A stretch of DNA of 41,871 bases from a virus. Below the pieces are notes generated by a model that saw only the letters and a list, made by a program, of their open reading frames with translations, searched no databases and was not told the DNA's origin. The DNA is taken from positions 1-41,871 of IMG/VR virus record IMGVR_UViG_3300012208_000007; one strand, given 5' to 3'. Positions 2,115-34,290 of this stretch are shown piece after piece. Position 1 is the stretch's first letter. Each line of letters opens with the position of its first letter. A program made the translations under genes and the position numbers.

Positions 2115-3353
2115 TCATTTTGAAGCGCTGCGCACCAATGTTTCTTTTTCGGTGATGCGCATGGGATCGATCAAGAATTGCCCGGGCTTGACCTGCAGTC
2201 CGCGATACTCCGCACCATCTATTGTCACAACAATCGTGCGGCAGGCCAGCACTTCCTCCAGATGTTCTGCCATGATCAGCGGGTCATGAACCCTCACAGT
2301 CCGGCCCATGGCCCTTAATTCCGTCATGAGCGCCATGCCGGCAGATTCTTCGGTGATGGCCGTGCCGGCTTTGTAGGTAAGCCCAAGGATCCCGACGTCG
2401 CCATCTGCCGGGACTTGCGCCAAGATGAATTTGAGCATTGTCTCGTTGATGGCGTCGGTAGCGGCCGCCAAATGAGCGGTGATTCCAGCTTTCTTGGCAA
2501 CGTATTGGAACATCCGGTTATCACGGGGGTAACACAAGCCGGAAAACGGCATTCCCGGCTTCAGCGCTTTCTTCCCAATCCGGCTGTCGCAGCCGACGAA
2601 ATCTAGAATCACATGAGGATCGGCTCCCAATTGTTTCGCTACCATTCCCACCTGGTTCGCAAAACTGATCTTCATGGTCACGGCGCAATTCAAGGAAATC
2701 TTGGCGAGTTCGGCTTCGACAAATGTCATGATTTTGCATTCTGGTGGAATAGGATTTGCGCGCATACCTGGAACTTGCGAGAGGCGCGCATAAAGAGATG
2801 CCACTTCTTCGGCTGCTTGCTGATTACTTGCGCCTACTAAGGCAACGTCGGGATAAGCCAAGTCGTGCAGCACCGTCCCGAGAGCGATCAATTCCGGCTT
2901 GTAGACCAGCTGGATGTTGGCTGAATGCTGCTGGATGGCCGGCAAAAGAATCTTCTCGCAGCTCCCCGGCGTCACCGTGGATGTAATGATGAAGAGATAC
3001 GGGCTCTTGCGGTTTTGCTCACTGACCGCATGGGCAATCGCCGCGATCCCATCAAGGAGATGGTGGTTGTCAAAACTGCCGTCCGGAAGGCTAGGCGTGG
3101 GAGCAACGAAGATGCAAGCGTCTGTCCATAAGACCGCGTACTGTGGATCGGTAGTTGCTTTCAGCGATGGTCCTGTTTTTTGGAGGGCTGCCTGGAGCCC
3201 AGGCTCCTGGATGGGAGCGCATTTCGCATTGATATCATGAACTTTTTTTGGATCGAGATCGTATCCTTTTACCTGCAAACCGACTTGCGCAAACGATACC
3301 GCCAGTGGCAAGCCCAGGCGTCCTAATCCGAGCACGCATATGTGATTTATCAT
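2115..3353 (-). CDS. UDP-glucose/GDP-mannose dehydrogenase family nucleotide-sugar dehydrogenase
   Basis: 412 residues, about the normal length for the family. The NAD-binding glycine motif GLGRLG is at residues 9-14, STVTPGS at 125-131, the lysine/asparagine pair (K228, N233) in TMKISFANQ, and the catalytic cysteine C274 in GLCYPRD. Family knowledge: these enzymes oxidise the C6 hydroxyl of UDP-glucose or a related UDP/GDP sugar to the acid in two NAD-dependent steps. The exact substrate cannot be told from the sequence. The ATG overlaps the preceding stop (ATGA), so it is translated with the glycosyltransferases around it. Confidence 0.88.
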   Translation of the reverse strand: MINHICVLGLGRLGLPLAVSFAQVGLQVKGYDLDPKKVHDINAKCAPIQEPGLQAALQKTGPSLKATTDPQYAVLWTDACIFVAPTPSLPDGSFDNHHLLDGIAAIAHAVSEQNRKSPYLFIITSTVTPGSCEKILLPAIQQHSANIQLVYKPELIALGTVLHDLAYPDVALVGASNQQAAEEVASLYARLSQVPGMRANPIPPECKIMTFVEAELAKISLNCAVTMKISFANQVGMVAKQLGADPHVILDFVGCDSRIGKKALKPGMPFSGLCYPRDNRMFQYVAKKAGITAHLAAATDAINETMLKFILAQVPADGDVGILGLTYKAGTAITEESAGMALMTELRAMGRTVRVHDPLIMAEHLEEVLACRTIVVTIDGAEYRGLQVKPGQFLIDPMRITEKETLVRSASK

Positions 3354-4325: not shown

Positions 4326-5014
4326 TTCATGGCCAGCTTGAGTTTGTCGATATCGATTTCGCGCAGCGGTGCCAGGTCCCTGTAAAGCCGTTCTACATTA
4401 TCGTTCGAATGCCGCACCAAGCGCTGCCGATAGGTTTCGTCTTCTTCGGCTTTCCCAAAAAATACATGCAAATGCTCTATGACGAAAGGCAAATAACGTC
4501 GTCGTCCGATGGCGTCGGCAAGCTCGCCGATCCAGCTATCGCCATAGTCCGAACTAAAAAAAGGTGGCGTGATATAACCAAGAACCTCATACCAGCGCCG
4601 GCCTATGAAGGGGTGAACGCCAAAGCCACCTGTGCCGCTTGCTTGGCTGTGACTTCCGTCGTTTCCATGCACCATCAGGATCTCGTCCGGGTATTTTTCG
4701 AATTCCTTATACACTAGGCCATCCCACCCGGGAGTTCGAAAATAAATATCGTCGTTCATTTGTCCAAGAATTTCTCCGTTAGCTTTCTGTGCACACTTAT
4801 TCCAAGTATTCGAAAGAACAATGCGCGGGCCAACAAGGAATCGGACGTCGAGATTAAATTCTTCATTGAAATTAAAATAGGTCAAAGTGTCGTCAAGGTC
4901 CACATACGCAATGAATTCTAGATAGTCACGGTCATTTGCTGCGTCGAGAGCCGAACGGACGGCGCGTTCAAGGCCTCGGCGGCGCCCGCGCGTGGGGATG
5001 AGAATAGAAATCAT
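4322..5014 (-). CDS. GT2-like glycosyltransferase
   Basis: 230 residues from the ATG at 5014, whose last bases overlap the stop of the methyltransferase gene (ATGA). The N-terminus MISILIPTRGR is classic for family 2 transferases. Acidic motifs VDLDDT (39-42) and MNDDI (88-89) follow in the expected order. A longer start at 5074 exists but would overlap the upstream gene deeply. It acts with the neighbouring transferases on an unknown glycan. Confidence 0.8.
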   Translation of the reverse strand: MISILIPTRGRRRGLERAVRSALDAANDRDYLEFIAYVDLDDTLTYFNFNEEFNLDVRFLVGPRIVLSNTWNKCAQKANGEILGQMNDDIYFRTPGWDGLVYKEFEKYPDEILMVHGNDGSHSQASGTGGFGVHPFIGRRWYEVLGYITPPFFSSDYGDSWIGELADAIGRRRYLPFVIEHLHVFFGKAEEDETYRQRLVRHSNDNVERLYRDLAPLREIDIDKLKLAMK

Positions 5015-6052: not shown

Positions 6053-7076
6053 TGCTGGCTCCCTTGTCCGGCCGTGCGACCGGAGCACCGGTCACCTTCT
6101 CAATCATCTTCTGAAGCATAATTTCAAGGGTGTATTCCCGCCGCACCAACTCGCCGCCGGCGCGCGCGATCCGTTCGCATTCTTCGGGATGCTCCAGGTA
6201 GTATTTGACTTGTTTCCCGTTGTTCGCAAAAAATCCCAGCTCATAGTAAACAATATGGATTTCGTCTTTGAAAATCGTGAGGTTCTTGGCAGCATCGCCC
6301 GGGAAACGCGGAAACATGACCATCGTATCGCTGGCCATAATATCGAAGGTTTTTTCCACGAGCAATCGTGACGTTGGTGGCAAAAGAAAAAAAATTCTTA
6401 TCTGCCGATAGTTCTCCGCGAGCAGCTCCGTCGTTTCGCGCTCGCGGAGCCCGCCGAGGTCCTGGACGATCACATTGCCGGAATAGAAAATCGTTTTCGC
6501 GCCGACATGCTGGATCAATTTCATCAAATACTCATGCCGTTGCTGATAGAGCGTGCCAATGAAGCCGAGATCGTATTTCTTGGGCTTACTGATAATCGGC
6601 CCATCCGATAGACCGTTCAATGTTGGCGGATGAAAGATCGTTGTATCCGCCCCATAAGGGAGCCACTCGCCGCCATACTTTTCAGCATCTTGCGCGGCCG
6701 GGAAAGAATAGTGCGTCGCCCATTTCTTCAGTTCCGGCACGCGCTGCGGCAGCCACAAGTCGCCGCGGTCCATGGATTCATCGAACCGCGCGAGGACCGG
6801 CACTTTCTCCATGAGCAGCTCCCACTGCTCGAACGGATAAATGGCCTTGAGCCAGGGCTGGGTGTATTCCATATAAAAAACAATGACCAAATCCGATTCG
6901 AGCAATTGCTCCATCGTCGGCATCTTGTCCAGGATAAAAGGAGTCACCTGCACGGTGTTGCCGGGGAAAAAGCAATCGCGCACTTCATGGCCCATCCTTG
7001 TGAGCGTATTGTAATAGCCGCCGAGAGCGTAAGAACAGGCCAAGAAATTCCTTGGATAAAAAATTGTCAGCTTCAC
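5988..7076 (-). CDS. CgeB-like glycosyltransferase (GT-B fold)
   Basis: 362 residues from a GTG at 7076 that overlaps the upstream stop (GTGA). The start is fixed by the N-terminal strand VKLTIFYPRN and the overlap. The C-terminal third carries the pattern of the CgeB/Glyco_trans_1_2 family: HIVYYELGFF, KYYLEHPEECERIARAG and a final REYT segment. A GFIGTLYQQR motif and a glycine-rich centre fit a GT-B enzyme. It ends with TAG, readthrough adding four residues. Confidence 0.77.
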   Translation of the reverse strand: MKLTIFYPRNFLACSYALGGYYNTLTRMGHEVRDCFFPGNTVQVTPFILDKMPTMEQLLESDLVIVFYMEYTQPWLKAIYPFEQWELLMEKVPVLARFDESMDRGDLWLPQRVPELKKWATHYSFPAAQDAEKYGGEWLPYGADTTIFHPPTLNGLSDGPIISKPKKYDLGFIGTLYQQRHEYLMKLIQHVGAKTIFYSGNVIVQDLGGLRERETTELLAENYRQIRIFFLLPPTSRLLVEKTFDIMASDTMVMFPRFPGDAAKNLTIFKDEIHIVYYELGFFANNGKQVKYYLEHPEECERIARAGGELVRREYTLEIMLQKMIEKVTGAPVARPDKGASNDRLARIDRAMAQSSKRVSCT

Positions 7077-12879: not shown

Positions 12880-13752
12880 CTAAGAAGGCCCGACCTGTGT
12901 CACTAAAATCACGCACCGGCATCGAGGGTGCGCGCCCGGAAAAAGGTCGCCGGAAGGAAACGGCTGGCCCAATTCCACTTCCACGCCATCGTTCTCATCG
13001 CAAATTCCGCAGACATTTTCATCCTCAGAAGTGGTCCAGCGGATTTTCTTGACGAGCCCGCTGTCGCGCCAAACGATGAAGTTGCCGCCTGCTTGCGCGT
13101 TAGAAATTTCCGTTCGCGAAATCAATTCCGCGCGCGCCTCGCTGAAAATGCCATTGCCTTCCGCTTCATCGGCAAGCGCCTCCTGGATGGCGGTTTTGAT
13201 TTCTTCAAACGGCGAATCTTCCGTAAAAGAATCGGCCACAATCTCGCGGATCCGGTCCCGGGTGGTGTTCGATATGGCCCATTTAGCGTCCGGGTTCTGA
13301 ACGAGATTCCCTTCGACGTCGCGTTTCATGCCAACCATTTCGGCGGCACGCTCGCGAGCATAATTTTCGGCGGTGGTATTGGCCGAGGAAATCAAGCCAG
13401 CAGTCGAGAATTCAATCTGCAGAGCTCCCTGACCGATCCCGGAGAGCATCGCGGATTCGAGTGCCGGCTGGATCTCGAGCGGCAAGCTTTCCCATTCCTT
13501 TTCTAGCGCGGCAATCAGAGCATCGGCGAAGGCTTGGACATCGTCATCAAGAGACTTTCGGAGCAGCTTCGCGTAGCTTTTCGAAGCGTGGGGCCCCGCG
13601 ATAGAGTTGGCCGAACTGAAAGCGATGCGTTCGCGCTCGGCCGCGGAATCGCCCTGATGCTTTTTCCATTCGCTGTTGAACACGTGCAACCATTGACGGC
13701 GGCGCGATTTTGGAACGTAGGCAGGTACCTGCGACTCGCTAGAGTAAGGCAC
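12880..13752 (-). CDS. Phage head morphogenesis protein (SPP1 gp7/Mu F-like)
   Basis: 290 residues from a GTG at 13752 overlapping the portal stop. The N-terminus (SESQVPAYVP...FSSANSIAGP) resembles the ChaB-like segment seen at the front of such proteins. The C-terminus holds the diagnostic minor head motif: RTEISNAQAGG, WTTSEDENVCGICDENDG, then HPRCRCVI, a Cys/His set. Family role: minor capsid protein that associates with the portal. It ends in TAG. Confidence 0.82.
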   Translation of the reverse strand: MPYSSESQVPAYVPKSRRRQWLHVFNSEWKKHQGDSAAERERIAFSSANSIAGPHASKSYAKLLRKSLDDDVQAFADALIAALEKEWESLPLEIQPALESAMLSGIGQGALQIEFSTAGLISSANTTAENYARERAAEMVGMKRDVEGNLVQNPDAKWAISNTTRDRIREIVADSFTEDSPFEEIKTAIQEALADEAEGNGIFSEARAELISRTEISNAQAGGNFIVWRDSGLVKKIRWTTSEDENVCGICDENDGVEVELGQPFPSGDLFPGAHPRCRCVILVTQVGPS

Positions 13753-16048
13753 GGCGGACCCTTTCGCTCGGCAACATCAGTTTTTCGAGATCCTGAACGG
13801 TGTAATCGACTCCCGAAAAAACCAAACTCTTCAACGTAAATACTTCCTCTTCAAGCGGGTTGCCGGCATCTACATATTTCTGCGCATCGGCTTTTGGATC
13901 CAAGTACGCAACGCAAACATGCGGGCGATATTCCGGATGTGTTTCGGTATGCGGGAGCACTTTCAAATCTTCGTGCAGCTTCCGGAGTTTTCCGCTTTCA
14001 ACAAGCATCACCAGAGGTATGCCGTCTTCATTTTCCGGAAAGGCCTCGAGCGGCCCGATCGTGACGTCCAGCTCGCCAGTCCCGCGCGTGATTGCTTCGA
14101 TTTGATCCTTGGTCACGGATTCATGAAAGCCCCATAAAACCGTGCAGTGCGGCTGCATGTCGCGACCCTTTTGTGCAAAATCTTCTTCATCGACTGGAAT
14201 CGCCAGCACGCGCTGGGCATCATCGGCCGAAAGATTGAATTGGACGCTGCCGTATTTGCGTTTACTTAGAACATTGCCAAGAATTTTCTGGAATCTGCCG
14301 GAAACCGCCGCGAGCTGGGAGCGGAAAACTTTCCCGACGGCATGCTGGATGGCATGGACGGCCTGTTCGGATTCAGCTGTCAGTACGCCGGCTTCAATAC
14401 GCGATCCGAGCCGTTTTTCGAATAGCGCTTCCTGAAGTTTTTTTTTACCGTCCAGGCTTTCTTTGCCGTTATCGACCCCGGTGTTTCTTCCCGTCGACCG
14501 GCCACCGCCGGCTTCCTGGCTGACGGGTGTGCCGCCGCGTGTGGCATTGTGCCCGCCGGCGCCGTTCGTCGCGGGCTTCGGAGGCGGTGCCGTGGGCGTT
14601 ACCGGATGTGGACGAATAACTCCCTTTTCATCGACCATCAACCCCGCGGTTGCCGGAGCAACGCCCACTGGAATGAATCCTGTCCCACTGATCACTCCGA
14701 GCTGGTCGGCTTCCGGCTCCGGCCGCAATTCCTCGCCAACACGCTTCCGGGCTTCATTCGGGGTCAGGATGGCCTTCCCGACCAGCATCGTGAGCGCGGC
14801 AGCATTCTTCAGTGGATCCGGCTCGGCATACGGGTTGATCGCGATTTCATAATCGACCATCCCCATCTTCCGCTGGATGATGAAATCGATGATGCCTTTG
14901 ACCCAGAGCACCCATGGCAGCGTTCCTTCGACTTCGGCGGCGTCTGAAGACGATTTGCCTTCCGTGCGGATCATCTTCATCAGGCGTTGCGGACTTGTGC
15001 CGTAACCGAAAGCGATTTCGCGGATGTGTTTCTCGTCATAGAGCCCGGCAAGGAGTGGCTCTTTAGGAAAAAGAATTTGATCGACTTTGCCAGGCTCATT
15101 GAATCCCTGCACGAGCCGCCATTGGTTGCGCTTGGCGAGGTTCCCGGCCAGCTGCGAGTTCATCCATTCCATCGCTTCTTCGATGCGGTCTGGCGACGTT
15201 CCACGTGGAACCACTTGGACAACGCCGGGGACGCTGCCCTCGGTGTAATACGCAAGGACGAATTGCAATCTCTTGATGCCGATTTGAATTTCAGGGGCAA
15301 GCTGCTCAGTGGCCGAATTTCCGTAGAGCTGAGAAGCCATCGTATTCCGTGGCACAATACTTCTAGGTTTATATACTAACTGGTCAGTAGTGAGGTCCAC
15401 CCAAGGCATGCCCCAATAATTTTGGGCATAGGCAGGATCTGGCGGCATCGGCGTGAAACCATTGTTGTCAATATACCTTGTTATCATTTCGCCGCGAATG
15501 ACTGCCAGTTCCGCAATCTCGCCTTTGTATGTCTTACGCATCAAAACCGAGGGTGCGTCGATCACGAGAAGATCATCGAGTAGCGGACGCAGCCATTCCT
15601 GCCAGTTGTGTTCGCGGTCGGGATACTCAAAGAACCGGTTCAGCTTAATCAGATCGTCTTTATTGTCTTTGGCGCGCTGCGCTACGTCCTTGCGAGACTC
15701 CATTGGGTTGGCACGCAACTGGATTTCCCAAGGAGCGCGCGTGACCGTATCTTTCACGTTCTCGATGCAGATCCGCGCCAAAGGATAAGTCGCGAGCGCT
15801 TTCAAGTCCGCGGCGGAAAATTCCGCGTCGGCGCGGGGGGTAAAAATCATGTTCTGCCCGGACCAGGTTTGGAATTGACGCGGCTCGCTACCTGGCCCTC
15901 CCAAAGGCTTGATTGGCTGGAATGGTGACCCCCAATTGTCAGGATCGATCCCGCGGATGGTATCGGCAGGTTTTTGATAAAGCGACCGGAGTCCTTGCAC
16001 CAATTGTGCAACAGGACGAATCACGAGACCGGTGCGACCATTTGCCAT
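13739..16048 (-). CDS. Portal protein with C-terminal 2H phosphoesterase-like domain
   Basis: 769 residues, well above the usual 400-550 for portals. Residues about 1-480 have portal features (FEYPDREHNWQEWLRPLLDD, FKDPLK-like segments, NEARKRVGEELRPEPEADQ near 440-460). A Pro/Gly linker and a coiled stretch follow. Residues about 610-740 carry PHCTVLWG (H634) and RPHVCVAYL (H710), the paired H-x-S/T-x-like motifs of 2H phosphoesterases; the second has Cys in place of Ser/Thr. Portals form the DNA entry ring; the enzymatic tail could act on 2'-5' or cyclic phosphates (inference). It ends in TAG. Confidence 0.85.
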   Translation of the reverse strand: MANGRTGLVIRPVAQLVQGLRSLYQKPADTIRGIDPDNWGSPFQPIKPLGGPGSEPRQFQTWSGQNMIFTPRADAEFSAADLKALATYPLARICIENVKDTVTRAPWEIQLRANPMESRKDVAQRAKDNKDDLIKLNRFFEYPDREHNWQEWLRPLLDDLLVIDAPSVLMRKTYKGEIAELAVIRGEMITRYIDNNGFTPMPPDPAYAQNYWGMPWVDLTTDQLVYKPRSIVPRNTMASQLYGNSATEQLAPEIQIGIKRLQFVLAYYTEGSVPGVVQVVPRGTSPDRIEEAMEWMNSQLAGNLAKRNQWRLVQGFNEPGKVDQILFPKEPLLAGLYDEKHIREIAFGYGTSPQRLMKMIRTEGKSSSDAAEVEGTLPWVLWVKGIIDFIIQRKMGMVDYEIAINPYAEPDPLKNAAALTMLVGKAILTPNEARKRVGEELRPEPEADQLGVISGTGFIPVGVAPATAGLMVDEKGVIRPHPVTPTAPPPKPATNGAGGHNATRGGTPVSQEAGGGRSTGRNTGVDNGKESLDGKKKLQEALFEKRLGSRIEAGVLTAESEQAVHAIQHAVGKVFRSQLAAVSGRFQKILGNVLSKRKYGSVQFNLSADDAQRVLAIPVDEEDFAQKGRDMQPHCTVLWGFHESVTKDQIEAITRGTGELDVTIGPLEAFPENEDGIPLVMLVESGKLRKLHEDLKVLPHTETHPEYRPHVCVAYLDPKADAQKYVDAGNPLEEEVFTLKSLVFSGVDYTVQDLEKLMLPSERVRRALL

Positions 16049-33604: not shown

Positions 33605-33634
33605 TTGACAGCGCAGACGGGAATCTGGCAAAGT
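33605..33634 (+). promoter_or_regulatory. Promoter-like boxes before the PTH2-like gene
   Basis: TTGACA (33605-33610), 18 bases, CAAAGT (33629-33634) preceded by TGG, an extended -10. Start would fall about three bases before the ATG at 33644, giving a nearly leaderless message. Confidence 0.45.
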
Positions 33635-33643
33635 CTTCTCGTT

Positions 33644-34165
33644 ATGACCTAGATCGAATCTTACGTTTACGTTTTTGTCCGCACCAACCTTCCGACCGAA
33701 CATCAGTTTGTGCAAGCCCTTCATTCCGTCTATCATCTGGCACAACTCCGCCGCGAAGAAGGCACGCCCAACATCGTCCTGATTGGGTTGCCGGATGCGG
33801 CGACGCTCCGGCGCGCGGAACGGAAGCTCATTGCCGCGAAAATCCCGCATTTTGTTTGGGAAGAGCCGGACTTTAATTTTGGATTGACCGCCATTGCTAC
33901 GGCGCCGGTACGCGGCGACCAGCGGAAAGCACTGGCCAATTACCGAGTTTACAACCATGCGTCGGTAGCTCAGATAGGCCGTATAGAGCAGTCGGTTCTA
34001 ACCGGAAGGCCGCAGGTGCAAAACCTGCCCGACGCTCCAGATTTCAACACACCTGTCGTACAAGTGGCTAGTACACTGGACTCTAAATCCGGAAATGATC
34101 GTTCGACGCGATCCAGGTGTGCCAAGTTCGATGGGGCAGGTTCGGAGGCATCCGAGCGGGTTTGA
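33644..34165 (+). CDS. Peptidyl-tRNA hydrolase 2-like protein with in-frame amber at codon 3
   Basis: The reading frame starts ATG ACC TAG ATC GAA TCT, then YVYVFVRTNLPTEHQFVQALHSV, IVLIGLPDAATLRRAERKL and HFVWEEPDFNFGLTAIATAPV. This order (VRxDL, QAxHA, strand, helix, EPDxxxxxTAIA) is that of PTH2-like phage proteins, which release peptides from drop-off peptidyl-tRNA. No ATG, GTG or TTG lies between the TAG (33650-33652) and 33710, which would remove the first strand. The domain should end near 33955, but the frame runs on without stop through two tRNA genes to 34165. Only readthrough or an ATC start would yield the full domain. Confidence 0.5.
33959..34039 (+). tRNA. tRNA with CTA anticodon (amber), atypical
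   Basis: Seven-base acceptor GCGTCGG/CCGACGC pairs perfectly; discriminator T and encoded CCA follow. D stem GCTC/GAGC encloses a long 14-base loop. The anticodon arm has a CGG/CCG core and a six-base loop TTCTAA, placing CTA after U33. The T stem GCAGG/CCTGC is perfect, but its loop reads TGCAAAA. The long D loop and short anticodon loop make it a divergent or decaying tRNA. Confidence 0.6.
34049..34124 (+). tRNA. tRNA with CTA anticodon (amber suppressor), class I
   Basis: Acceptor ACACCTG/CAGGTGT, discriminator G, encoded CCA. D stem GTAC/GTAC with a 9-base loop containing GG. Anticodon stem CTGGA/TCCGG with one wobble, loop CTCTAAA: U33, anticodon CTA, A37. T stem GATCG/CGATC with loop TTCGACG. 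Every arm is canonical, so this is a convincing UAG-reading tRNA. The charged amino acid cannot be read from the sequence. Confidence 0.85.
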
Positions 34166-34184
34166 GTACCAACTGCCCCCGCCA
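34133..34184 (+). other. tRNA-like remnant without anticodon arm
   Basis: GGGGCAG pairs with CTGCCCC across 52 bases. Inside are a D-arm-like TCGG/CCGA hairpin with AGGCAT loop and a GGTTTGAGTACC segment. A CGCCA tail follows. Too short for a tRNA; probably a deleted fourth tRNA or a processing hairpin between two tRNA genes. Confidence 0.3.
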
Positions 34185-34190
34185 AAAGTT

Positions 34191-34290
34191 CCGGGCGTAG
34201 CTCAAGGGTAGAGCAATCGGTCCCTAAAACCGACAGAGCAATCGATTACTAATCGATTGGTTGCGGGTTCAAGTCCCGTCGCCCGGTCCA
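34191..34290 (+). tRNA. tRNA with CTA anticodon (amber suppressor), class II
   Basis: Acceptor CCGGGCG/CGCCCGG, discriminator T, encoded CCA. D stem GCTC/GAGC with loop AAGGGTA. Anticodon stem TCGGT/ACCGA with loop CCCTAAA, so anticodon CTA with C at 33 instead of U. A long variable arm has a 9-base stem CAATCGATT/AATCGATTG. T stem GCGGG/CCCGT with loop TTCAAGT. The long arm places it with Ser/Leu/Tyr-type tRNAs. Confidence 0.8.

Follow-up and report, generated by a model that had tools for sequence, protein, structure and literature searches.

A probable amber-gated PTH2-like gene family beside CUA tRNAs in phages

Introduction

How can a protein be made from a gene whose third codon is a stop codon? 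The question is raised by a small gene on the IMG/VR virus contig IMGVR_UViG_3300012208_000007 (41,871 bases; this whole stretch is called the window below). The gene begins with ATG ACC TAG, continues in frame as a protein of the peptidyl-tRNA hydrolase 2 (PTH2) fold and is followed by tRNAs that read as CUA, the anticodon for the amber codon UAG. As judged from sequence comparison, it is very probably amber-gated and part of a PTH2-fold family centred on phages. No prior description of such an amber gate was found in the open-licence literature.

The locus and its close relatives

The gene and its signals were located as follows.

33605-33610, plus strand: TTGACA hexamer upstream of the PTH2-like gene, shared with the close relatives L002 and L003, without a convincing -10 box
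33644-33652, plus strand: ATG ACC TAG, the putative amber gate at codon 3; the amber is conserved among relatives
33644-33958, plus strand: gene for the PTH2-fold protein, 105 codons when TAG is counted as a residue; strand 1 predicted from residue 7
33653-34165, plus strand: open frame running past the apparent gene end and through the first two tRNAs, closed by TGA at 34163-34165

A first-pass annotation, made from the letters of the window, had pointed to the amber at codon 3 and to an unbroken frame behind it. Both are present: a start, one codon and the amber (33644-33652) are followed by a frame that opens with IESYVYVFVRTNLP, IESYVYVFVRTNLPTEHQ. As had also been stated, the frame offers no ATG, GTG or TTG past the TAG until the GTG at 33710, which lies within the domain. 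The TTGACA promoter proposed in the same annotation held in part: the hexamer exists, and both close relatives have it too, but a sigma-70 scan upstream of the gene found no complete promoter, a good -10 box being absent.

The protein was found in two further IMG/VR phages (L002 and L003) at 89% and 64% identity. Both carry the same start at the same site (ATG ACC TAG or ATG ACA TAG), with TTGACA upstream, CUA tRNAs directly downstream and in-frame length changes just past the TAG. The ratio of non-synonymous to synonymous substitution rates (dN/dS) of the window gene was ~0.19 and 0.22 against these relatives, which indicates purifying selection on the frame; for the post-amber frame, five comparisons gave ~0.06-0.28. 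Elsewhere on the L002 contig, another gene (L197, ~2927-2962) reads ATG GGT ATT CGA GCT TTC TTT TAG AAA; its counterpart in the window carries GAG in place of this TAG, which is possibly a second, recent in-frame amber.

Distant homologues and their annotation

Searching phage records by tblastn recovered homologues in jumbo phages at 29-36% identity. Among the matches listed, the Eneladusvirus records have no annotated gene under the homologous stretch. In CBB, GAP32, XbC2, Kaldavass, ME3 and Arash the annotated start falls inside the gene because an amber sits upstream of it, as was seen on reading the 5' sequence. The starts read ATG ACG CAC TAG in BF, ATG GCA CAA TAG in GAP32 and CBB, ATG GCT CAC TAG in XbC2, ATG ACT TAG in ME3, ATG CTG TAG in Arash, ATG AAA TAG in Tenacibaculum phage pT24 and ATG TAG GTG in mycobacteriophage IkeLoa. 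An uncultured 595-kb phage has ATG ACT CAC TAG, and two huge uncultured phages have ATG TCG TAG and ATG AAG TAG. In XacN1 and RAS14 the domain makes up the C-terminal portion of a larger product. These two had been candidates for sense exceptions and were rejected as such, ATG AAG TAG with a ribosome-binding site being found 5' of the annotated starts; the annotated ATG of the XacN1 homologue, ORF364, lies five codons past the amber.

A scan of bacterial genomes gave two loci, one on a contig of a metagenome-assembled genome (ATG TCG TAG with a CUA tRNA) and one on an Achromobacter contig (a sense copy with no tRNA nearby). In the examined GenBank records of amber-carrying phages, the PTH2-like gene is mis-annotated or absent and has therefore stayed hidden.

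Survey of homologous loci

A total of 130 loci were sorted by script and clustered at 80% identity into 80 clusters, which come from diverse, mostly large phages. By locus, 105 have an N-terminal amber, one a probable amber (GTG CGT TAG), four an internal amber and 18 a sense start, and two are odd. By cluster, the N-terminal amber was counted in 57 (56 and the probable one), the internal amber in four, the sense start in 17 and odd arrangements in two. Not one of the 80 clusters has TAA or TGA at the N-terminal stop position. The N-terminal comparison suggested with the first reading of the locus therefore came out in its favour: 57 of the 80 divergent clusters retain the amber, and the domain frame downstream is under purifying selection. 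A pseudogene-like or phase-variable nonsense mutation devoid of regulatory meaning has nothing to recommend it beyond the stop itself. It is refuted by the restriction to TAG at one site in tens of lineages and by the purifying selection downstream, and its probability is negligible.

The amber stands at codon 2-5 in 51 of the 56 clusters and at codon 3 in 33 of them. The base after it (+4) is a purine (A or G) in all 56; of 91 TAG codons that serve as ordinary terminators in five of the phages, 42 are followed by a purine. Amber suppression is favoured by a 3' purine.

Translation could instead begin at a weak or non-AUG codon past the TAG, the ATG-NNN-TAG being an undecoded mini-open reading frame (mini-ORF) that tunes initiation by reinitiation or attenuation. 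Consistent with such a start, ATT, ATC or ATA directly follows the TAG in 26 of the 56 clusters, and IkeLoa is annotated from the GTG right after its ATG TAG. The remaining post-TAG codons (GTA, GTT, AAC, ACT and others) do not resemble starts, and 45 of the 56 clusters have no ATG, GTG or TTG between the TAG and the domain. Reinitiation demands neither TAG over TAA or TGA nor linkage to a CUA tRNA, and four lineages carry the TAG within the domain. A downstream start is accordingly considered improbable.

The mini-ORF might also be the effector itself: on termination the two-codon frame would shed peptidyl-tRNA, and the PTH2-like protein made by readthrough would counter this. The amber at codon 3 in 33 of 56 clusters has the geometry of a minigene, as in the lambda bar minigenes, and the fold is that of a peptidyl-tRNA hydrolase. 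Several ambers lie at codons 5-9, at codons 3-8 in fused genes or inside the domain, and the second codon is not fixed, which leaves this explanation with a very small probability.

The four homologues with an internal amber (L223, L241, L252 and L272) have a sense start, TAG at differing sites inside the domain and a CUA tRNA nearby; in these the amber seems to have moved. In the tree, amber-bearing members fall to either side of the midpoint root and the state changes several times, a pattern that tentatively suggests that the amber is old and has repeatedly been lost.

Two loci depart from this arrangement. In L039 (~4960-5010) the ATG frame meets TAG at codon 11, and past TAGG the domain resumes in the +1 frame; none of the 20 tRNAs of the contig is a CUA tRNA, and the locus represents either a frameshift gate or an assembly error. 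In Myxococcus phage Mx1 (L022, ~2975-3005) an ATG with a ribosome-binding site is shifted by one frame relative to the domain, and the frame that it opens ends at UGA near the domain start. The Mx1 genome has no CUA tRNA, and a UGA or frameshift gate is possible there.

Linked suppressor tRNAs

Downstream of the window gene, three tRNAs were identified by Rfam; a tRNA-like element lies among them.

33959-34036, plus strand: tRNA 1, directly abutting the gene; RF00005 at 39.4 bits; CTA by eye, with an irregular anticodon loop
34049-34124, plus strand: tRNA 2; ARAGORN anticodon CTA, loop CTCTAAA; RF00005 at 49.6 bits (Rfam bounds 34049-34121)
34133-34187, plus strand: short tRNA-like element with no D arm, between tRNA 2 and tRNA 3, from folds and alignment
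34191-34290, plus strand: tRNA 3, class II with a long variable arm; anticodon loop CCCTAAA, CTA by fold; RF00005 at 55.7 bits (Rfam bounds 34191-34287)

The amber tRNAs that had been reported beside the gene are thus borne out, although the anticodons were read in different ways: ARAGORN calls only tRNA 2 as CTA, makes no call for tRNA 1 and reads tRNA 3 as Val(aac), against the CTA of its class II cloverleaf. The counterpart of tRNA 1 in L003 reads TTA.

The first tRNA of L003 (6304-6400) has a TTA (ochre) anticodon; in its last (6591-6668) the anticodon loop is 8 nt long and is read by ARAGORN as CCTA, making decoding of UAGG possible. The ~55-nt tRNA-like element is conserved (window 34133-34187, L002 6379-6440, L003 6485-6542) and consists of an acceptor-like stem, a 7-bp arm, a small T-like arm and a CCA-like end. 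CTA is found in the 7-nt loop in L002 and L003 and is absent from the window loop. The window element had no match in Rfam; it is possibly a minimal suppressor tRNA.

Across the survey, a CUA tRNA lies within the ~5 kb flank in 61 of the 80 clusters. CUA accounts for 69 of 344 flanking tRNAs, whereas a survey of five phages, over the whole genome or by tRNA region, gave 5 of ~150. Of the 69, 68 share the direction of the gene. Among the genomes surveyed for tRNAs, both amber and CUA tRNA are present in GAP32, ME3, IkeLoa, Arash, LR756511, RAS14, XacN1, pT24, G001, G015 and G017, and also in G011, where ARAGORN missed the tRNA. In RaK2 both are missing from the whole genome; Hallingskeid and LR745208 lack the amber, and a search of their tRNA regions turned up no CUA tRNA. 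A conserved in-frame amber and its cognate CUA tRNA, the combination expected of a suppressor-gated gene, are thus found in the same genome, save for clusters with a sense start and CUA and for the phage genome G018.

In Salmonella phage Arash (L010, 5301-5372) ARAGORN reads the tRNA recorded as Phe as CTA, an amber suppressor. UAA-reading (TTA) tRNAs occur near or besides the family in L019, L043, L044, L203 and L165 (RAS14).

Code usage

Genome-wide reassignment of UAG (genetic code 15), with the amber as an ordinary sense codon, was also considered. Recoding of UAG has been reported in some huge phages, and a second TAG occurs within the gene in the LR756501 and L262 homologues. TAG still ends long ORFs in GAP32, ME3, Arash and pT24, which refutes reassignment for these genomes. 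In-frame TAG is as frequent in GAP32 (25 in 45,360 codons) as in RaK2, which has no suppressor (30 in 42,006). IkeLoa and the window also have ORFs closed by TAG, and the TAG terminator of the window portal gene overlaps the next start. TAG in frame in many genes and unused as a terminator, the mark of code 15, was not found. Overall, reassignment appears highly unlikely, and the amber-carrying phages compared are, on their sequences, standard-code phages without recoding.

GAP32, ME3 and Arash were scanned for genes of the same design (ribosome-binding site, ATG, TAG within eight codons, long open frame). Each genome gave 3-5 TAG candidates, of which the PTH2-like gene is the sole one conserved among the three.

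The portal-like ORF of the window (13742-16048, minus strand) has a C-terminal part that matches an RNA ligase PHROG (phrog_755, 1.6e-9).

Protein fold

The AF2 model of the protein has a pLDDT of 91.9. By Foldseek and VIA-align the top structures are PTH2, with Z up to 13.9 (AF2095), and the eight best are PTH2 or PTH2-looking; clearly unrelated chains gave Z < 5. The family profile retrieved PTH2 sequences from the PDB at 6.5e-8, and 34 of 41 family members matched PF01981 (best 6.6e-11). The PTH2 likeness claimed at first holds for the fold and, by profile, for membership of PF01981 at the level of the family; the window protein alone gave no match to PF01981, for which the family alignment is needed.

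The family shares with PTH2 (PF01981; archaeal PTH2, human Bit1/PTRH2) the fold, significant profile similarity, R-x-D-L, Q-x-x-H and a late Thr. It differs in its N-terminal amber, in EPD for DAGxT and in the lysine of GKxxxQxxH, which we take to be the catalytic residue of PTH2. That column holds Gln (21), Tyr (11), His (2) and others, with Lys outside the six commonest residues, and the window protein has His20. Many of the same genomes encode a separate canonical PTH2 without an amber. Because of the replaced lysine, the EPD motif and this separate enzyme, the family is named PTH2-like and hydrolase activity is not claimed. The idea of a self-adjusting switch, in which hydrolysis of peptidyl-tRNA would support suppression, is weakened since Gln, Tyr, His or other residues replace the lysine.

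The amber residue precedes the first predicted strand (residues 7-13), and from the model most amino acids should be tolerated there. Given this position ahead of strand 1 and the great diversity of the suppressor tRNAs, the identity of the inserted residue is probably irrelevant and UAG acts as a gate rather than as a coded residue.

Amber gating and feedback

Ribosomes starting at the ATG would reach UAG at codon 3, where RF1 and the phage CUA tRNA would compete. Where suppression does not occur, RF1 would terminate translation after a dipeptide; where CUA tRNAs are present and charged, UAG would be read and the whole protein produced. Its output would be proportional to suppression activity and would so report it. 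The earlier proposal that the gene is complete only if UAG is decoded is strongly supported by the deep conservation of TAG (never TAA or TGA), the +4 purine, the linkage to CUA tRNAs and the purifying selection downstream.

Several observations weigh against amber gating as set out here. Eleven sense clusters lie near a CUA tRNA, so that the amber is not obligatory; a perfect correlation of amber and CUA tRNA, which seemed true on ~45 loci, was broken by these clusters in the larger set. No CUA tRNA was found in G018 (362 kb, 57 tRNAs), which has the amber, nor on two shorter amber contigs. The window has three CUA-type tRNAs where one would suffice, and the missing lysine makes the biochemical role less clear. 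The link between amber and CUA tRNA is a strong association only.

From the sequences, we infer that UAG would be decoded in infected cells and that the protein would in turn influence suppression. Since the family stays near CUA tRNAs even after loss of the amber, its job appears to concern suppression itself, which suggests feedback whose sign is not readable from sequence. The likeliest role, put forward tentatively, is negative feedback, in which the protein would bind or clear suppressor (peptidyl-)tRNA and limit harmful readthrough of UAG terminators. A timing gate that involves no feedback is rather unlikely, and support of suppression by the protein is still less likely. More generally, the family may form a widespread homeostat, which we regard as plausible, though somewhat less likely than not: a PTH2-derived protein that acts on suppressor (peptidyl-)tRNA and is made only via amber suppression would let a phage sense and limit or sustain its own UAG readthrough in a closed loop, the code being otherwise standard.

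In the window and its two close relatives, the PTH2-like frame reaches the tRNAs without meeting a stop and runs on through tRNA sequence (window 33959-34165, L002 6301-6420, L003 6304-6522). Translating ribosomes would enter tRNA 1 in this clade, and because no stop separates the gene from the tRNAs, gene translation and tRNA maturation may be mutually exclusive on one transcript.

Relation to known systems

The autoregulation of RF2 (prfB) is similar in that an early in-frame stop reads out termination versus alternative decoding. The prfB gene uses UGA and +1 frameshifting, whereas the PTH2-like gene relies on UAG, presumably together with a phage suppressor tRNA, and does not encode a release factor. 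Code 15 phages (TAG as Gln; crAss-like, Lak) likewise have a phage CUA tRNA and in-frame TAG, but they recode many genes; in the genomes compared here, TAG is a normal terminator and only one conserved gene has the early amber. Suppressor tRNAs have been described in the same jumbo phages as those considered here (XacN1, GAP32, CBB and BF), and the tRNAs are the same. The authors of the XacN1 study looked for genes on which its suppressor tRNAs might act by readthrough and reported finding none (PMC5852040); the putatively amber-gated homologue ORF364 is proposed here where that study reported no target. The annotated peptidyl-tRNA hydrolase of CBB, CBB_392 (PMC5259590), is distinct from the PTH2-like CBB_406, as is RaK2 ORF188 (PMC3622015) from the PTH2-like ORF216.

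The suppressor tRNAs of standard-code phages, hitherto without a known target, thereby gain a specific, conserved and likely one, which is open to testing in laboratory phage-host pairs such as those of mycobacteriophage IkeLoa and Serratia phage BF. If true, the loop would be a natural and much-repeated case of a gene that reports stop-codon suppression.
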